DNA of 64,000 nucleotides from Geobacter sp. SVR (GTDB taxonomy: Bacteria; Desulfobacterota; Desulfuromonadia; Geobacterales; Pseudopelobacteraceae): contig NZ_AP024469.1 in NCBI RefSeq assembly GCF_016865365.1, forward strand, positions 4,494,501 through 4,558,500, read 5' to 3'. Positions within the stretch are counted from its first letter, which is position 1; the number at the start of each line of letters is the position of its first letter. The position numbers were made by a program, and so were the translations under genes. Below the pieces are notes generated by a model. That model saw only the letters and a list, made by a program, of their open reading frames with translations. It was not told the origin of the DNA and did no database searches. Shown here one piece after another: positions 57,230-64,000 of the stretch.

Positions 57230-58618
57230 GTGCAACCTGCCGATGTAAACACCCCTGTTGTACCCCCTCCCGGAGTCAGGAGTGAAATAGCCCGGGAGCT
57301 CTATGAGCTCGGTCTGGGTCTGTTGCAAGCGGATAACCTCAAGGCGGCGCGCCTGCAGTTCCACAAGGCGCGGACCATGGCCCCCGATTTCCATGATGCC
57401 TCCCTGGCCCTCGGTCATTGCCTGCACGAATTGGGGGAGTACAAACAGGCCCTTGCTGTTTACGACCAGGTGCTGATAGACATGCCGCAGCTCTACGCCG
57501 GCTGGAACAACCGGGGCAACACCCTGCTGGCGTTATGCCGCCACGATGAGGCGGCCGTCAGCTATGCCCGCGCCCTGGAGCTGGCCCCCAAGCTGCACGA
57601 TGCGCGGGTGGCGCTGGCAACCTGCCATCAGGCAATGGGCAGGATCAAGGAGGCGCTGGCTGCCTGCGAAGAAGTGCTCGCTGCTGCTCCGGAGCATGCC
57701 GAAGCCCACTGGAACAGGAGCTTGTTGCTCCTCCTGACGGGCGAGTACCGGGAGGGATGGCGGGAGTACGAATGGCGCTGGAAAAAAAGGGGCTTTACTT
57801 CTCCGCGACGGGACTTCCTCCAGCCGCGCTGGCACGGTGAACCGGCCTCTGGCAAGACAATCCTGATCCATGCGGAACAGGGCTTCGGCGACACGCTGCA
57901 GTTCTGCCGGTATGTCCAGCTGGTGGCAGCCCGGGGGCTGCGGGTCATTTTTGAATGCCACCCGCCGCTGGTGACGCTGATGGAGAGCTTGGCCGGCGGG
58001 AAGGTAAGCGTGGTTGCCATGGGTGAGCCGCTGCCCTCCTTCTTCGACCTGCAGGTGCCGCTCATGAGCCTGCCGCTGATCTTTGATACGACATTGGAAA
58101 CCATTCCCGAAACAGTTCCGTATCTTACTCCTTCTCGGGAGCGTTTACCGCACTGGCAGTGTCAAATTCCTGAGAAAGATAGTCTCAAGATCGGGCTCTG
58201 CTGGGCTGGGAAGTCATATCCCGATCCGGGGAGGAGTTGTCCTGTCGAACTTCTGGCGCCGCTGGCAGAAACGAGAGGGGTCTCGTGGTATTCCCTGCAG
58301 ACCGGATGGAAAGATGCACTGCCCTTTCCGATGATCGATCTGACCTGCCATATTCGGGATTTTGGCGACACGGCCGCCCTGATATCTCAACTTGATCTGG
58401 TCATCACGGTAGACACGGCCGTGGCGCATTTGGCCGGAGCACTGGGCAAGCCGGCCTGCCTCATGCTACCTTATGCGCCGGACTGGCGCTGGATGCTGGA
58501 GCGCGAGGATTCTCCCTGGTATCCGACAATGCGGCTGTTCCGGCAACAGAAGGCGGGGGACTGGGAGAGCGTTATACAACGAATTGCAGGCTTCCTACAG
58601 CCGAAAATACTAATGTGA
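57230..58618 (+). CDS. TPR-repeat glycosyltransferase (GT9/OGT-like)
   Basis: A 462-residue protein: tetratricopeptide repeats (about 20-155, for example ELGLGLLQADNLKAARLQFH and NRGNTLLALCRHDEAAVSYA) followed by a glycosyltransferase domain (about 190-455) with IHAEQGFGDTLQFCRYV, LKIGLCWAGK and VITVDTAVAHLAGALGKP, typical of heptosyltransferase/SPINDLY-like enzymes. It probably adds a sugar to protein or surface glycan. Start GTG follows the regulator by three bases, so it likely shares the transcript of the two-component genes. Confidence 0.85.
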   Translation: MQPADVNTPVVPPPGVRSEIARELYELGLGLLQADNLKAARLQFHKARTMAPDFHDASLALGHCLHELGEYKQALAVYDQVLIDMPQLYAGWNNRGNTLLALCRHDEAAVSYARALELAPKLHDARVALATCHQAMGRIKEALAACEEVLAAAPEHAEAHWNRSLLLLLTGEYREGWREYEWRWKKRGFTSPRRDFLQPRWHGEPASGKTILIHAEQGFGDTLQFCRYVQLVAARGLRVIFECHPPLVTLMESLAGGKVSVVAMGEPLPSFFDLQVPLMSLPLIFDTTLETIPETVPYLTPSRERLPHWQCQIPEKDSLKIGLCWAGKSYPDPGRSCPVELLAPLAETRGVSWYSLQTGWKDALPFPMIDLTCHIRDFGDTAALISQLDLVITVDTAVAHLAGALGKPACLMLPYAPDWRWMLEREDSPWYPTMRLFRQQKAGDWESVIQRIAGFLQPKILM

Positions 58619-58804
58619 AGGCAGTTTACACTCCCCCAGGACTAACCGAAGGGGAACCACTGCACTAACGAGCCGTGAAACCAGGCAGCTTCCCCGCCAG
58701 GACAAAGTACAAAAACTCGATCTTCAGGGTGACATGATGCGGAAAAGGCGAGAGTCAAACTGACTCCCCCTGCTGTTAGACGTATATATGAGGATTCTTT
58801 TTCT

Positions 58805-61800
58805 ATGAGTCACGCGAGAAACCAGCTTTTAGACATCACTGGAGAATCAAGGGTAATTGAACGCTTCATCAGATCACATGACATTGTGTTCGACGTCGGC
58901 GCCAACACAGGCGACTGGACGCGGCAGGTACTTGAAACGCATTCCGATGTTAGCACCCATCTTTTCGAACCAGTACCAACTCTCATTGAAAGCCTCAAGA
59001 ACCACTTGGCCGGCCATAGCGGCTCTGGCAAGATATTCCCCAATTGCTGCAGCATCGATCAGCAGGAGGGGTCCCGCCTGTTTTTCCATTACCCTGACGC
59101 TCCTTCCTTGAGCGCCTTCCACAGGAGAGTTGATCTGGAAGCCCAGAACGGACTCCAGGAGCCCCGGCAGGGAATCGTTTCTGCCACCACCCTCGATGCT
59201 TATTGCCTCACAAAGCAAATCAAGAGAATAAATTTCCTGAAGATAGATACCGAGGGGAGCGAGCTGGACGTGCTCAAGGGATCACATCAACTCCTGCAGC
59301 ATGGCCACATCGACTATATCCAGTTCAAATATGGCGGGACATACAAAGATGCAGGGATTACTCTGGGTGAAGTTTACACCTTGCTCGAATCGTACCGTTA
59401 CGGAATCTTCAGGATTACTCCGGAAGGGCTGGAATACCTGCCGGTGTTTGGCCCACATCAGGAGACATATGCGTTCAGTAATTTTCTGGCGGTGAATGAA
59501 CGGTTTCTATCGACCGTACTCGGGCTCCCGCCGCGGATGCTCAACCTGCGGCAGCAATGCGTGAAGCACCGCATAACTCCCCGTGGTGTGATTCATATCG
59601 GCGCGCATGAAGGCTCCGAACTGAAAACCTACCTCGATATGGGCATCCAACAGGTAGTATTCATCGAAGCCAACCCGGATATATACCAGAAGCTTTCGGC
59701 AAACGTGAAGGAAGTTCCCGGTGTAATCGCCGTACACTGCGCCATCAGTGATCAAAACGGCACCGTTGACCTTCGTGTCACCTCCATGGATCAGAGCAGT
59801 TCCATCCTTCCGTTAAAAGATCACCAGAAGATATACCCGGGTATCCATGAAGTCCGATTGGTGACGGTACCTTCGAGAACCATCGATAGCCTCCTTGCCG
59901 AGTTGGATCTCGATCCGGCCGGCTATAACCTGATGAACATCGACATTCAGGGGGCCGAACTGCTGGCACTTAAAGGCGCCACCAACACCTTGAAACACAT
60001 CGATGCCATCAATACCGAAGTAAACTATGAGGAACTGTACGAAGGGTGCGTTTTCATCGATGAGCTTGACAGGTATCTCGACACCTTCGGCTTTGAGAGA
60101 AAAGCAACCACAACCCCCCACCATCCCTCATGGGGTGATGCCCTCTTTGTCAAACGGCCGCTTATTACCATGTCGACACTTGGCTCCAATGGACGTTTCG
60201 GAAACCAGGTGTTTCAGTATGCCTTCCTGCGGATTTTTGCACGGCAGCACGGCTACGAACTGGAAACCTCCGACTGGATCGGCCAATGGCTCTTCGATCA
60301 TCACGATCCAGCGGTCACACGACAGTTGCCATTGGTGAAGGAGAAAAGCAATATTCTTTCCGAAGCACTCATTCCCGCTTCGCAAGAGTCGTTCAGGTAT
60401 TCGGATTTTGTGGGGTTTTTCCAGTACCATACCAGCTATTACGCCCCGCATCGCGACTTTTTTCACTCTCTGTTCCGGCCGGCTCCCGCCTTGGAAACGA
60501 CCATGAATGCTGCCGTTCAAAAGCTTCGTGCTCTGGGCAAAACCGTCGTCGGGCTCCATTTGAGGCGCGGAGATTACGGCTACGACTACTTCTTCGTCAC
60601 CCCGAATCAATGGTATCTTGACTGGTTGCAGAAAATCTGGCCTACGCTGGAGGAGCCTGTTCTCTTTATCGCCAGTGACGAACCGGACAAGGTTTTGGCC
60701 GATTTTGCAGACTATCGGCCGATCACATCACAGAGCCTGGGAATCACGCTGGCGGGGGCCGATTATTTTCCTGACTTCTACCTGCTTTCCAGATGCGATC
60801 TCGTCGCCATCTCCAACAGCTCGTTTTCATTTGCGGCAAGCATGCTGAATGCCGAAGGGAGACTCTTTTTACGCCCGGACCTCACTCAAAAGAAGCTCAT
60901 AGAATTTGATCCCTGGAATGACGAAGTAATCCTGCGAAACGCTGTCGTCGAAACCAGTCACAACATTGAAGCAGCTGATACGCGGCGTGCCATTGTATTT
61001 GTGAACAATTACTATCCAGCTTTTCTGCACTACCTCTATGAGAAAAAATTCCCTCGGTTTGCTGAGCAGCCCTACGCGGTCCAGCATCAGCACCTGATTG
61101 ATGAACTTTTTGGCGATAGTGATTTTTATTCCCACAATATACGTGGCGCCGGATGGAGAGCGCACGACATCGTTATGAATGCGGCCCCTGCCCAAATGGC
61201 GTGGGCACGGGACCGCGGCCTTTCAGGGCAGATGTGGGACATTCTCTTCGAGCAGATCGCTCAACTTAAAGCCGACGTGCTCTACATACAGGACATGCAT
61301 GCTTTTCCGGCGGATTTCCTGAAACGGATCAGGAGCGTGGTACGGCGGATCGTGGGGCAGATTGCATCCCCGATCGCTCCCGGTACACCACTGGAACTGT
61401 ATGATCTGATCATCAGCTCTTTCCCGCATTTTGTGGATCGTTTCAGCACTATGGGGATCAGATCGGTGTATCAGCTTTTGTCGTTCGAGCCGCGTGTCCT
61501 GTCGCACATACCCCGCTGTGAATACTCGGAACGCCCCATTCCGTGCTCGTTTGTAGGGGGTATTTCCCCGCTTCACCACAAAGGCAATCAGATGCTGGAG
61601 GCACTGATCGCGAGCAGTCCATTGCAAATCTGGGGTTACGGTCGACAGAGCCTCCCCCTTGACTCTCCCATACATGGGCGGCATCACGGCGAAGCGTGGG
61701 GCCGGTCAATGTACGAAATCATGGCTTCTTCCCGAATAACCATCAACCGGCACATCGATGTCGCCGAGAACTATGCCAACAACCTGCGACTGTATGAAGC

Positions 61801-62047
61801 GACCGGCTGCGGGGCTTTGCTGATTACCGATTACCGGGACAATCTCAACGATTTGTTCGAGATCGGCAAGGAGATCGTAGCGTATCGATCGGCCGAAGAA
61901 TGTGCCGAGCTGATCGACCATTACATCAATCATCCTGCCGAGGCCGAAACGATCGCGGCGGCAGGCCAGCGGCGAACTCTGCGCGATCACACGTATGCGC
62001 ACCGGATGCACAGACTAGGTTCGTTGTTGGAACTGTATCTTCAATAA
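58805..62047 (+). CDS. four-domain surface-glycan enzyme: FkbM methyltransferase x2, GT11-like, CgeB-like
   Basis: A 1080-residue soluble protein. Residues about 10-235 are an FkbM methyltransferase (VFDVGANTGDWTRQV, FLKIDTEGSELDVL). About 250-445 is a second FkbM unit (GVIHIGAHEGSELKTYLDM, NIDIQGAELLALKGA). About 455-720 is a GT11-like fucosyltransferase domain (GRFGNQVFQYAFLRIFA, then HLRRGDYGYDYF at 582, the HxRRGDY motif). About 725-1080 is a CgeB/GT4-like domain (CSFVGGISPLHHKG, NNLRLYEATGCGALLI). Each is a known family; together in one protein they are unusual. It probably methylates and extends a surface polysaccharide or glycoprotein. Acceptor unknown. Cupin, aminotransferase and methyltransferase genes follow on the same strand. 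Confidence 0.88.
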   Translation: MSHARNQLLDITGESRVIERFIRSHDIVFDVGANTGDWTRQVLETHSDVSTHLFEPVPTLIESLKNHLAGHSGSGKIFPNCCSIDQQEGSRLFFHYPDAPSLSAFHRRVDLEAQNGLQEPRQGIVSATTLDAYCLTKQIKRINFLKIDTEGSELDVLKGSHQLLQHGHIDYIQFKYGGTYKDAGITLGEVYTLLESYRYGIFRITPEGLEYLPVFGPHQETYAFSNFLAVNERFLSTVLGLPPRMLNLRQQCVKHRITPRGVIHIGAHEGSELKTYLDMGIQQVVFIEANPDIYQKLSANVKEVPGVIAVHCAISDQNGTVDLRVTSMDQSSSILPLKDHQKIYPGIHEVRLVTVPSRTIDSLLAELDLDPAGYNLMNIDIQGAELLALKGATNTLKHIDAINTEVNYEELYEGCVFIDELDRYLDTFGFERKATTTPHHPSWGDALFVKRPLITMSTLGSNGRFGNQVFQYAFLRIFARQHGYELETSDWIGQWLFDHHDPAVTRQLPLVKEKSNILSEALIPASQESFRYSDFVGFFQYHTSYYAPHRDFFHSLFRPAPALETTMNAAVQKLRALGKTVVGLHLRRGDYGYDYFFVTPNQWYLDWLQKIWPTLEEPVLFIASDEPDKVLADFADYRPITSQSLGITLAGADYFPDFYLLSRCDLVAISNSSFSFAASMLNAEGRLFLRPDLTQKKLIEFDPWNDEVILRNAVVETSHNIEAADTRRAIVFVNNYYPAFLHYLYEKKFPRFAEQPYAVQHQHLIDELFGDSDFYSHNIRGAGWRAHDIVMNAAPAQMAWARDRGLSGQMWDILFEQIAQLKADVLYIQDMHAFPADFLKRIRSVVRRIVGQIASPIAPGTPLELYDLIISSFPHFVDRFSTMGIRSVYQLLSFEPRVLSHIPRCEYSERPIPCSFVGGISPLHHKGNQMLEALIASSPLQIWGYGRQSLPLDSPIHGRHHGEAWGRSMYEIMASSRITINRHIDVAENYANNLRLYEATGCGALLITDYRDNLNDLFEIGKEIVAYRSAEECAELIDHYINHPAEAETIAAAGQRRTLRDHTYAHRMHRLGSLLELYLQ

Positions 62048-62065: not shown

Positions 62066-62470
62066 ATGGATTCATTGATCGAACACATCACTTGGAACGA
62101 GCAGCATATTGCCACCATAATTCGGCGCGATTTCATGCCCGAATCCACCGTATTCATCTCTCCGGACAGTTACTACCAGCAGCTCGGCTTCGTGTGCTAT
62201 CCAGCCGGCGGAGAAGTTCCCCGCCACTCCCACCTGCCTCTGCAGCGGCATCTGGTCGGGACCCCGGAAACACTGCTTATCAGGAAGGGAAGTGCCTTTG
62301 TCGAACTGTATGCTCTGGACAAGAGCCCACTCGGCACCTGGTTGCTCGAACAGGGAGATATCATTCAGCTGGTTTCAGGCGGCCATTGCTTCAAGTGCCA
62401 GGAAGATACCATCTTTTTGGAGATTAAGCAGGGGCCCTATACCGGACTGATCGAAAAGGAGCGTTTCTGA
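62066..62470 (+). CDS. cupin-fold sugar-modification protein
   Basis: A 134-residue protein of the cupin type: VCYPAGGEVPRHSHLPLQRH supplies the metal-binding His cluster (about 48-62), and LLEQGDIIQLVSGGHCFKC (about 92-110) the second half. Similar small cupins (WbuC-like or sugar-epimerase-like) occur in O-antigen and glycan loci. It ends overlapping the ATG of the aminotransferase gene, so they are coupled. Confidence 0.75.
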   Translation: MDSLIEHITWNEQHIATIIRRDFMPESTVFISPDSYYQQLGFVCYPAGGEVPRHSHLPLQRHLVGTPETLLIRKGSAFVELYALDKSPLGTWLLEQGDIIQLVSGGHCFKCQEDTIFLEIKQGPYTGLIEKERF

Positions 62471-63576
62471 TGATTCCCGTAGCCGAGCCCTACCTGAGCG
62501 AGCATGACATCGCGCTGGTCAACGAGGCGCTCCGGTCCGGCTGGATATCGTCGGCCGGAAAATTTCTCGACCTGTTCGAAGAGCGCTGGTCGGCATATTG
62601 CGACATGCCGTTCGGCATTGCAGTCAGCAACGGATCGGTGGCATTGGATGTGGCGGTCGGCTTGCTGGACCTGCAGCCGGGAGATGAAGTGATCATGCCG
62701 ACCTTCACGATTATTTCACCGGCCCAGTCCATTGTCAGGGCCGGAGGGGTACCGGTTCTCGTCGACAGCGATCCCTCTAACTTACAGATGGATGTTACTC
62801 AGATTGAAGGCAAAATTACCGGGAGAACCAAGGCTATACTGGTAGTGCATATCTATGGCCATCCGGCCGATATGGATCCGATTCTTGAAATTGCCCGAAA
62901 ATATGGCCTGAAGATCATCGAAGACGCCGCTGAAGTACATGGGGCAGAATACAAAGGGAAACGCTGCGGTAGTTTTGGCGACATCAGTACATTCAGTTTT
63001 TACGCCAACAAGCTGGTAACCACCGGCGAGGGGGGCATGGTGCTGGTACGCACGCCTGAACTCGCCGAACGCGCCCGGTCACTGCGCAATCTCTGTTTCC
63101 AAAAACAACAGCGCTTTCTGCACGACGAACTGGGCTTCAACTTCCGGCTCACCAATGTCCAAGCCGCCATGGGGGTGGGCCAGATTGAACGGATCGAAGA
63201 AATTGTGGCACGAAAGCGGGCTATTGCCGCTGCTTACCATACACTGCTGGGAGGCCTCCCCACAATCACCCTGCAGCGAGAGGAGACCTGGGCCAAAAAC
63301 GTGTACTGGGTCTATGCGTTGCTGATCGAAGAATCAACAGGTTTGACCGCAGCGCAGCTGTCATCCAGGCTGAGAGAGCATGGGATCGAGACGCGCCCGT
63401 TCTTTCTGGGCATGCATCAGCAACCCGCATTCCATCGCATGGGGCTCTTTCACGGCGAGTCGTATCCCGTTGCCGAACGTTTGGCCCTTCAGGGGCTCTA
63501 CATTCCCAGCGGGCTCACTCTCAGTGATAGCCAGATCACCCAAGTGGCCGATGCGGTAAAGGTGTGCCTGTCATGA
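62470..63576 (+). CDS. DegT/DnrJ/EryC1/StrS-family sugar aminotransferase
   Basis: A 368-residue PLP-dependent enzyme that makes amino sugars from keto-sugar nucleotides. Phosphate-binding NGSVALDVAV (about 56), VVHIYGHPADMDPI, EDAAEVHGAEYKGK (Asp about 157) and the PLP lysine Lys181 in SFYANKLVTTGEGGM. Substrate probably a UDP- or dTDP-4-keto (or 3-keto) sugar. It overlaps the cupin gene at its start and the methyltransferase at its end (ATGA). Confidence 0.95.
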   Translation: MIPVAEPYLSEHDIALVNEALRSGWISSAGKFLDLFEERWSAYCDMPFGIAVSNGSVALDVAVGLLDLQPGDEVIMPTFTIISPAQSIVRAGGVPVLVDSDPSNLQMDVTQIEGKITGRTKAILVVHIYGHPADMDPILEIARKYGLKIIEDAAEVHGAEYKGKRCGSFGDISTFSFYANKLVTTGEGGMVLVRTPELAERARSLRNLCFQKQQRFLHDELGFNFRLTNVQAAMGVGQIERIEEIVARKRAIAAAYHTLLGGLPTITLQREETWAKNVYWVYALLIEESTGLTAAQLSSRLREHGIETRPFFLGMHQQPAFHRMGLFHGESYPVAERLALQGLYIPSGLTLSDSQITQVADAVKVCLS

Positions 63577-64000
63577 AAGTTTTCGATCATTATGCCCGCT
63601 ATTACGATTTGCTGTATCGCGATAAAGATTATGAGAGTGAAACCGAGTACATTCATGCGCTGATCCAGAACCTGGTCCCCGGTGCCCGCACCGTTCTAAA
63701 TCTTGGATGCGGCTCCGGCCGTCACGATCGTTTGCTTGCCAAGCATGGATATACCGTTACCGGTGTGGATCTGTCTGCGGAGATGCTTTCTCTCGCAACT
63801 GCTTCTGCCATCGATGACGGTGCATTGGAGTATATCCGGGGAGATGTGCGCACCATCACCTTGGGCAGGCAGTTCGATGTCGTAGTGTCGCTTTTTCATG
63901 TCATGAGCTATCAAACGGCGAATGAAGATCTATTAGCGGCGTTCACAACGGCATATAAACATGTAAAGCCCGCTGGCGGCTTCATATTTGACTGCTGGTA
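63573..64000 (+). CDS. class I SAM-dependent methyltransferase, partial
   Basis: ATG at 63573 overlaps the aminotransferase TGA (ATGA) and the frame is open to the window end, giving about 142 residues. VLNLGCGSGRHDRLLAKHG (about 36) is the SAM-binding motif, with GVDLSAEML following and DVVVSLFHVMSY later. Acceptor is unknown, but in this locus it is probably a sugar. The C-terminus is outside the window. Confidence 0.85.
   Translation, partial: MKVFDHYARYYDLLYRDKDYESETEYIHALIQNLVPGARTVLNLGCGSGRHDRLLAKHGYTVTGVDLSAEMLSLATASAIDDGALEYIRGDVRTITLGRQFDVVVSLFHVMSYQTANEDLLAAFTTAYKHVKPAGGFIFDCW

Follow-up and report, generated by a model that had tools for sequence, protein, structure and literature searches.

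The 64,000-nucleotide stretch of the Geobacter sp. SVR genome considered here (the window, positions 4494501-4558500 of contig NZ_AP024469.1, a single contig of 4,717,360 bases) carries an open reading frame (ORF) in which two FkbM-type methyltransferase domains (MT1 and MT2), a fucosyltransferase-like domain of glycosyltransferase family GT11 and a CgeB-like glycosyltransferase are joined in one protein. The frame opens with an ATG at 58805 and its stop codon ends at 62047 on the forward strand, with zero internal stops over 1080 amino acids (aa). It is composed as follows.

58805..62047, + strand: whole ORF, FkbM-FkbM-GT11-CgeB fusion of 1080 aa (profile matches; same architecture in genome G128, locus L060)
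58805..59524, + strand: MT1, first FkbM methyltransferase domain, aa 1-240 (TIGR01444, motifs, COMT-like fold)
59525..60139, + strand: MT2, second FkbM domain, aa 241-445, of the HIGAHEG subtype (PF05050, FkbM fold)
60140..60949, + strand: GT11 domain, aa 446-715, with HLRRGDY (PF01531, fucosyltransferase folds)
60947..60988, + strand: probably flexible linker between GT11 and CgeB, aa 715-728 (low model confidence; longer in G128)
60977..62044, + strand: CgeB-like GT-B glycosyltransferase module, aa 725-1080 (PF13524, GT-B fold)

The profile TIGR01444 (fkbM_fam, NCBIfam) matches two stretches of the protein with 143.7 bits against a cut-off of 37.7, the top one at aa 28-165, and the Pfam model PF05050 also matches two stretches (116.7 bits, cut-off 22.7), the top one at aa 264-431. 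The third domain is a distant member of the GT11 family, with 31.3 bits for PF01531 (Glyco_transf_11) at aa 453-686 against a cut-off of 23.9, a value below which the GT11 part of one relative (L045) falls at 18.5 bits. PF13524 (Glyco_trans_1_2), which we take to be the CgeB-like family, covers aa 929-1071 with 123 bits (cut-off 25). The motifs kept in the fusion are DxGANxG (VFDVGANTG) and KIDxEGxE (KIDTEGSE) in MT1, HIGAHEG and NIDIQGAE in MT2, and HLRRGDY (residues 585-591) with ISNSSFSF in GT11. A Pfam scan of the fusion found no tetratricopeptide repeats (TPR), and its matches in PHROGs were two generic ones (methyltransferase, glycosyltransferase) and one family of unknown function.

A second genome carries the same arrangement. 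G128 (WSYB01000017.1, the metagenome-assembled genome (MAG) Geobacteraceae bacterium X3_MetaBAT.27), which belongs to another family of the same order, encodes a protein of 1357 aa with FkbM-FkbM-GT11-CgeB in identical order in one frame, followed by an additional methyltransferase at the C-terminus. It aligns with aa 5-723 of the fusion at 56% identity and with aa 730-1079 at 55%, and it was the sole other such protein in the 147 genomes searched, the own genome included. All three domain junctions are open in frame in the alignment of the two genes, third codon positions account for 654 of their 1334 nucleotide differences, and the GT11-CgeB linker is about 29 residues longer in G128. We reject a frameshift or assembly artefact as hardly credible, because in this second genome, too, a single frame encodes the four domains in the same order; the fusion has no stops, and the substitutions over the junctions follow the codon pattern. 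The points that could speak for such an artefact come from relatives, with no sign of it in the window: the corresponding frames are broken in a Neorhizobium relative, and a gap of some 40 residues interrupts the MT2 part of a relative in G084. Of 395 genomes drawn from the phylum and scored with at most two candidates each, seven matched at 1e-40, and among the matches listed, in which G128 does not appear, only the window genome covers all four domains; G473 is the genome of locus L065 and adds no new case.

The AlphaFold2 model of the full fusion has a predicted local distance difference test score (pLDDT) of 83.8 and a predicted template modelling score (pTM) of 0.60. The FkbM-FkbM-GT11 part (aa 1-715, hereafter the block) was folded and compared separately, since the CgeB part dominated the first fold comparison, and its model reaches 89.1 and 0.83. 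The sole inter-domain stretch with a pLDDT below 50 is aa 715-728, and the block is predicted as one rigid body with a low-confidence linker to CgeB. The MT1 model has the class I S-adenosylmethionine (SAM) fold and resembles COMT, the only kind among the matches listed (Z 14.6, 157 aligned, 3.1 Å); MT2 matches the solved FkbM structure 2py6 (Z 15.1, 176 aligned, 2.7 Å). The GT11 part (aa 427-715) matches AtFUT1, NodZ, FUT8 and POFUT1/2 at Z 13.6-16.0, with AtFUT1 at Z 16.0 (245 aligned, rmsd 3.5), NodZ at Z 15.8 and FUT8 at Z 15.3; we take these solved fucosyltransferases to be of the GT11, GT23, GT37 and GT65 kind, by CAZy numbers. With AtFUT1, NodZ, FUT8 and POFUT1 it shares the fold and the HxRRGD-type motif, but identity in the aligned parts is 11-18% and the GT11 domain of the fusion is joined to two methyltransferases. 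The CgeB part matches GT-B enzymes at Z 16.6-19.4 over aa 719-1080, the highest value being that of 7qsg (300 aligned, 4.9 Å, over aa 723-1080). A sequence search against solved structures found no match, the lowest E being 0.077. The initial annotation, made from the sequence alone, had described four domains in one 1080-residue frame without stops and an HxRRGDY motif in the fucosyltransferase-like domain. The ORF and the matches above curated cut-offs bear out the former, and HLRRGDY together with the fucosyltransferase folds confirms the latter; the domain calls agree with the folds, the homologues are not all single-domain, and there is no frameshift at the join.

It had also been expected that each of these families is usually a separate protein, which is too strong a statement for the block and for CgeB. 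A GT11 scan of named genomes gave at least 298 relatives (at least 591 stretches), of which the best 80 were analysed. In 15 of these 80 loci, a count that is not a prevalence, MT1, MT2 and GT11 stand in this order in one frame, and 11 of the 15 are cyanobacterial by record title; seven more have MT2 joined to GT11 without a detected MT1, and in the remaining 58 GT11 stands by itself or is accompanied by different modules, the order in L117 being GT11-MT1-MT2. Holders of the block include Okeania, Planktothrix, Tychonema, Microcoleus and Pseudanabaena, as well as a Phycisphaerales MAG with a partial MT1. In a deltaproteobacterial MAG (L075), a protein of 2329 aa has Glyco_trans_1_2 domains after the block and constitutes a third, divergent case of the four-domain order. 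Because the holders span cyanobacteria, Phycisphaerales and this deltaproteobacterial MAG, the block is, as judged from its distribution, old or widely moved. The pairwise distances of MT1, MT2 and GT11 correlate (r 0.82-0.86, n=14, a level reached in 0 of 2000 permutations; L071 with its partial MT1 and L074 with MT2 at 27% were omitted), a result that shared organismal descent would also yield. Of 20 aligned rows, only L071 has residues inserted at the MT2-GT11 junction. GT11 domains with HIRLKDY in place of HxRRGDY occur in L064, L066, L067 and L068, and L064, the only one of them scanned with Pfam, also has a GT41 domain; activity loss or a changed donor is possible in these domains. Two further arrangements of GT11 were observed. 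In L045:682-6597 a protein of 1972 aa has the GT11 module fused to B12-binding radical SAM and GT9 domains, and in a Planctomycetota MAG (L081:5885-12217) a GT11-containing gene adjoins a CgeB-type gene (47% identity in the C-terminal half), the GT11 part lying about 6.4 kb from a flagellin gene.

The CgeB part is present in seven further long proteins of the window's order (L037-L041, L043 and L044), to which it is 43-49% identical in its N-terminal half and 60-65% in its C-terminal half. CgeB is directly followed in all seven by one kind of methyltransferase, which in six is 54-66% identical to that of the seventh, G128, and their other partners vary: radical SAM/SPASM domains, B12-radical SAM domains, extra methyltransferases or the FkbM-FkbM-GT11 block. 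In L041:8302-12165, for example, the CgeB module of a 1288-aa protein is fused to a B12-binding radical SAM domain. One more long CgeB-methyltransferase protein lies elsewhere in the phylum (L156). On these comparisons, CgeB is a movable module with a variable attachment to the block. The window fusion is without the trailing methyltransferase; the gene at 63564 was considered as a relocated copy of the C-terminal methyltransferase of G128 and rejected, there being no similarity between the two at 1e-6.

The genomic setting relates the long CgeB proteins to flagellin. The own genome encodes two flagellins above the PF00669 cut-off. The nearer one, outside the window, is 29.0 kb from the fusion on its downstream side, and the more distant one about 183 kb away on the upstream side; FlaF (4608297-4608674) lies 55 kb from the fusion start, at the far end of the island of glycan genes to which the fusion belongs. 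In G128, FlaF, FlbT, flagellin and MotB are on the contig of the fusion. Distances to flagellin were compared for 46 CgeB rows among the matches listed, from 25 genomes, second pieces of one frame being omitted. Long CgeB frames (at least 650 aa) share a contig with flagellin in 17 of 23 rows, and all 17 lie at 2.0-32.2 kb from it, whereas short rows do so in 10 of 23 and of these 10 none comes within 35 kb, three being 35-46 kb and the others 0.2-2.9 Mb away; rows without flagellin on the contig, six long and 13 short, were not counted. This contrast suggests a link between flagellin and mosaic glycan enzymes in the window's order, which we infer to be Geobacterales from the title of G128, Geobacteraceae. 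Other glycosyltransferases were observed beside flagellin genes. In the own genome (L035:7678-12247) two OGT-type genes (TPR-GT41) adjoin flagellin, lying together on one side of it in the opposite orientation, and in G128 (L147:6616-13548) a 2310-aa protein with many TPRs, GT9 and GT41 stands beside flagellin, FlbT and FlaF. No Maf (PF01973) was found in the own genome; among 14 controls the model matched only in archaea.

The immediate neighbours of the fusion are as follows.

57230..58618, + strand: upstream neighbour, TPR and GT9-like protein of 462 aa (TPRs and partial PF01075 match)
62066..62470, + strand: small cupin (weak WbuC-family match, below the cut-off; 35% homologue in Neorhizobium)
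62470..63576, + strand: DegT-family sugar aminotransferase (PF01041, 375 bits)
63564..64000, + strand: SAM methyltransferase of 261 aa, extending beyond the window end (PF13649/PF08241)

The partial PF01075 match of the upstream neighbour has 25.3 bits against a cut-off of 22, and this family is presumably of the GT-B type. The fusion heads a tight gene run: the cupin follows 18 bp downstream, DegT overlaps the cupin by 1 base and the methyltransferase overlaps DegT by 13 bases. Scans for promoters ahead of the fusion (58619-58804) found no sigma-54 site, the count in the window being 29 against 35.4 expected by chance, and sigma-70 and terminator scans gave chance level only. On one strand of a Neorhizobium plasmid (L054:770-8885) lie relatives of the cupin (35% identity), DegT (53-55%), the methyltransferase (43%), MT1 (28%) and MT2-GT11 (51% and 39-42%); several of these frames are broken, by sequencing errors or decay. 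Between the fusion and the nearer flagellin are the genes for RfbF, RfbG and RfbH of cytidine diphosphate (CDP)-sugar synthesis, all above cut-offs, together with a NeuB-like enzyme, an acetolactate-synthase-like enzyme, radical SAM proteins and glycosyltransferases. A part of this interval downstream of the window (L034:5532-12109) holds glucose-1-phosphate cytidylyltransferase, CDP-glucose 4,6-dehydratase, RfbH, the NeuB-like synthase, whose end looks cupin-like by eye, and the acetolactate-synthase-like enzyme, a gene set that suggests a branched dideoxy sugar, possibly of the yersiniose type. At the far end of the island a TPR-GT9 frame of 5229 nt forms one ORF over L036:4085-5998 and L143:1-3813. 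The genes for guanosine diphosphate (GDP)-fucose are together near 3.55 Mb of the own genome, about 1 Mb off: gmd and a manC type are above the cut-off, and fcl, whose frame is truncated at the edge of the stretch, falls short of its cut-off of 500 with 422.5 bits. The host can therefore probably synthesise GDP-L-fucose, and gmd, the fcl fragment and the manC type would permit such a donor without requiring it.

We propose, with moderate confidence, that the fusion is a modular enzyme for glycan assembly, part of a flagellin glycosylation island, and would add and O-methylate sugars of the flagellin glycan. Of the initial annotation, the four enzyme-like domains with family motifs, the genuine fusion and a likely role in glycan assembly are supported. 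The protein would act in the cytoplasm, where GT11 may transfer a 6-deoxyhexose, most simply L-fucose from GDP-fucose, to the growing glycan; MT1 and MT2, held against GT11, could O-methylate that sugar or its neighbour, and CgeB might add another residue, perhaps an amino sugar from the downstream cupin, DegT and methyltransferase genes. Flagellin would carry the finished glycan, the synthesis of which might be initiated by the TPR-GT9 neighbour, acting like FlmG. In this scheme the substrates and the order of action of the domains are inferred.

Several observations weigh against this proposal. Any activity, substrate or glycan of the fusion, and of the relatives found, is predicted. The island has no gmd above the cut-off, and the O-antigen-like genes rfbFGH are inside it. 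The contrast between long and short CgeB rows (Fisher p = 1.2e-7 at 35 kb and 1.4e-4 at 50 kb, kinship ignored) uses cuts of 35 kb and 650 aa that were set after seeing the distances, and distances from related genomes, and it is weaker at 50 kb, with 17 of 17 long rows against 3 of 10 short ones. GT11 lies within 35 kb of flagellin in only 2 of 19 further genomes reached via GT11 loci and compared by eye, namely G152 (about 6.4 kb) and G162 (about 32.5 kb), each on the same contig as flagellin; no flagellin was found in G154 nor in the three plasmid records searched. The idea that the GT11 part is tied to flagellin everywhere was rejected on the other 17 of these 19 genomes. The cyanobacterial majority of the block loci likewise implies that the block itself is not flagellin-specific; to our knowledge, cyanobacteria are without flagella. 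Because of these 17 genomes and the cyanobacterial holders, the block can be regarded as a general glycan tool, which the window's order probably uses for flagellin. Finally, HxRRGDY is lost in 5 of 20 block rows, being replaced by HIRLKDY in four (Laspinema, Phormidium, Oscillatoria) and by HLRPIKY in one (Trichodesmium), and the fold can therefore persist without that motif.

This last observation also bears on the possibility that only some of the domains are catalytic, with MT2, whose SAM motif I is altered (HIGAHEG), or GT11 being retained for geometry in a structural or glycan-binding role. In all 14 block sequences the DxGxxxG loop of MT2 begins with a histidine instead of the acidic residue. 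The same 14 sequences, however, have the DIQGAE motif of MT2, the fold is that of the solved FkbM, MT2 is nearer to its relatives (54-64%) than MT1 (40-51%) among those compared, and the window fusion itself carries HLRRGDY. We consider this explanation rather improbable, while giving it more weight than a product other than the flagellin glycan. In the latter case the fusion would serve lipopolysaccharide O-antigen, core or exopolysaccharide, and flagellin would be nearby since the region is a mixed surface-polysaccharide region, as could be argued from an ABC exporter encoded upstream (transmembrane and ATPase domains), an Omp85-like protein just below its family cut-off, the CDP-sugar genes of the island, the cyanobacterial relatives of the block and the many genomes in which GT11 is far from flagellin. 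A pure O-antigen cluster was indeed the initial guess, lowered after the searches for flagellin and Wzy_C. The sole Wzy_C match of the genome (O-antigen polymerase/ligase type) is about 1.08 Mb from the fusion, the long CgeB rows are close to flagellin and the short ones are not, flaF is at the far end of the island, and TPR-GT41 genes stand beside flagellin. The flagellin glycan is favoured over O-antigen because of the proximity of flagellin, the FlaF/FlbT context and the remote Wzy_C, and we judge the surface-polysaccharide explanation unlikely. Beyond the modular flagellin enzyme proposed above, it can be hypothesised, as a plausible but tentative extension, that the block is an undescribed composite transfer-and-methylate unit with three active sites in one rigid body, occurring in both cyanobacteria and Geobacterales and combined in cassette fashion with variable glycosyltransferase modules, and that the Geobacterales mosaics constitute an exchangeable flagellin decoration system. 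The fusion lets one ask whether fused methyltransferases act on the sugar just added by the neighbouring transferase, and it is a ready system for how one polypeptide makes a methylated glycan; the recurring block might find use in making methylated deoxy-sugars.

The initial annotation had further suggested an undescribed assembly enzyme, a claim that stands in part: the exact architecture was not found, among the matches listed, in the literature on FkbM-type fusions, but enzymes of this kind are known. A literature search for FkbM with fucosyltransferase found none, and a search on Geobacter flagellin glycosylation gave, among the matches listed and by title and abstract start, no work on Geobacter flagellin. 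The G128 protein has the same domain order at 55% identity and differs in its C-terminal methyltransferase and longer GT11-CgeB linker. In WsaE of Geobacillus stearothermophilus, according to the part of the source available, an N-terminal methyltransferase is fused to two glycosyltransferase domains, and methylation caps the S-layer glycan (PMC2943079). Compared by description only, the likeness lies in a methyltransferase and glycosyltransferases in one soluble protein. WsaE differs in having one methyltransferase, against two in the fusion, and two rhamnosyltransferase domains, and, in the same part of the source, its S-layer glycan is built on a lipid carrier and exported by an ABC system. 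The context found for the fusion is a flagellin-linked island, no search aimed at S-layer genes having been made. In the flagellin glycosylation islands of enterobacteria, all but eight of the GT41 enzymes include a methyltransferase domain, and genes of the FkbM kind are present (PMC4875605), as they also are in Geobacillus islands (PMC5109656), as far as the excerpts of both papers go. These GT41-methyltransferase fusions resemble the fusion described here in placing a glycosyltransferase and a methyltransferase in one protein of a flagellin glycosylation island; they differ in the GT41 partner and in having FkbM as separate genes, and the excerpts do not mention fusions with GT11 or CgeB. 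Fgi-1 of Aeromonas was considered as a multi-domain precedent and rejected, being a single GT2 of 327 aa in the portion of the paper at hand (PMC7874193). FlmG of Caulobacter, as portrayed in an extract of its description, is a cytoplasmic flagellin O-glycosyltransferase with TPR and GT-B parts, which works with FlaF/FlbT and without Maf (PMC7591256). The upstream neighbour at 57230-58618 can be likened to it by layout only, sharing the N-terminal TPR and C-terminal GT-B arrangement, whereas FlmG, a two-domain protein in that extract, differs from the fusion, which has no Pfam TPR. We class the fusion as a variant of the modular glycosyltransferase-methyltransferase enzymes that is neither WsaE nor FlmG.

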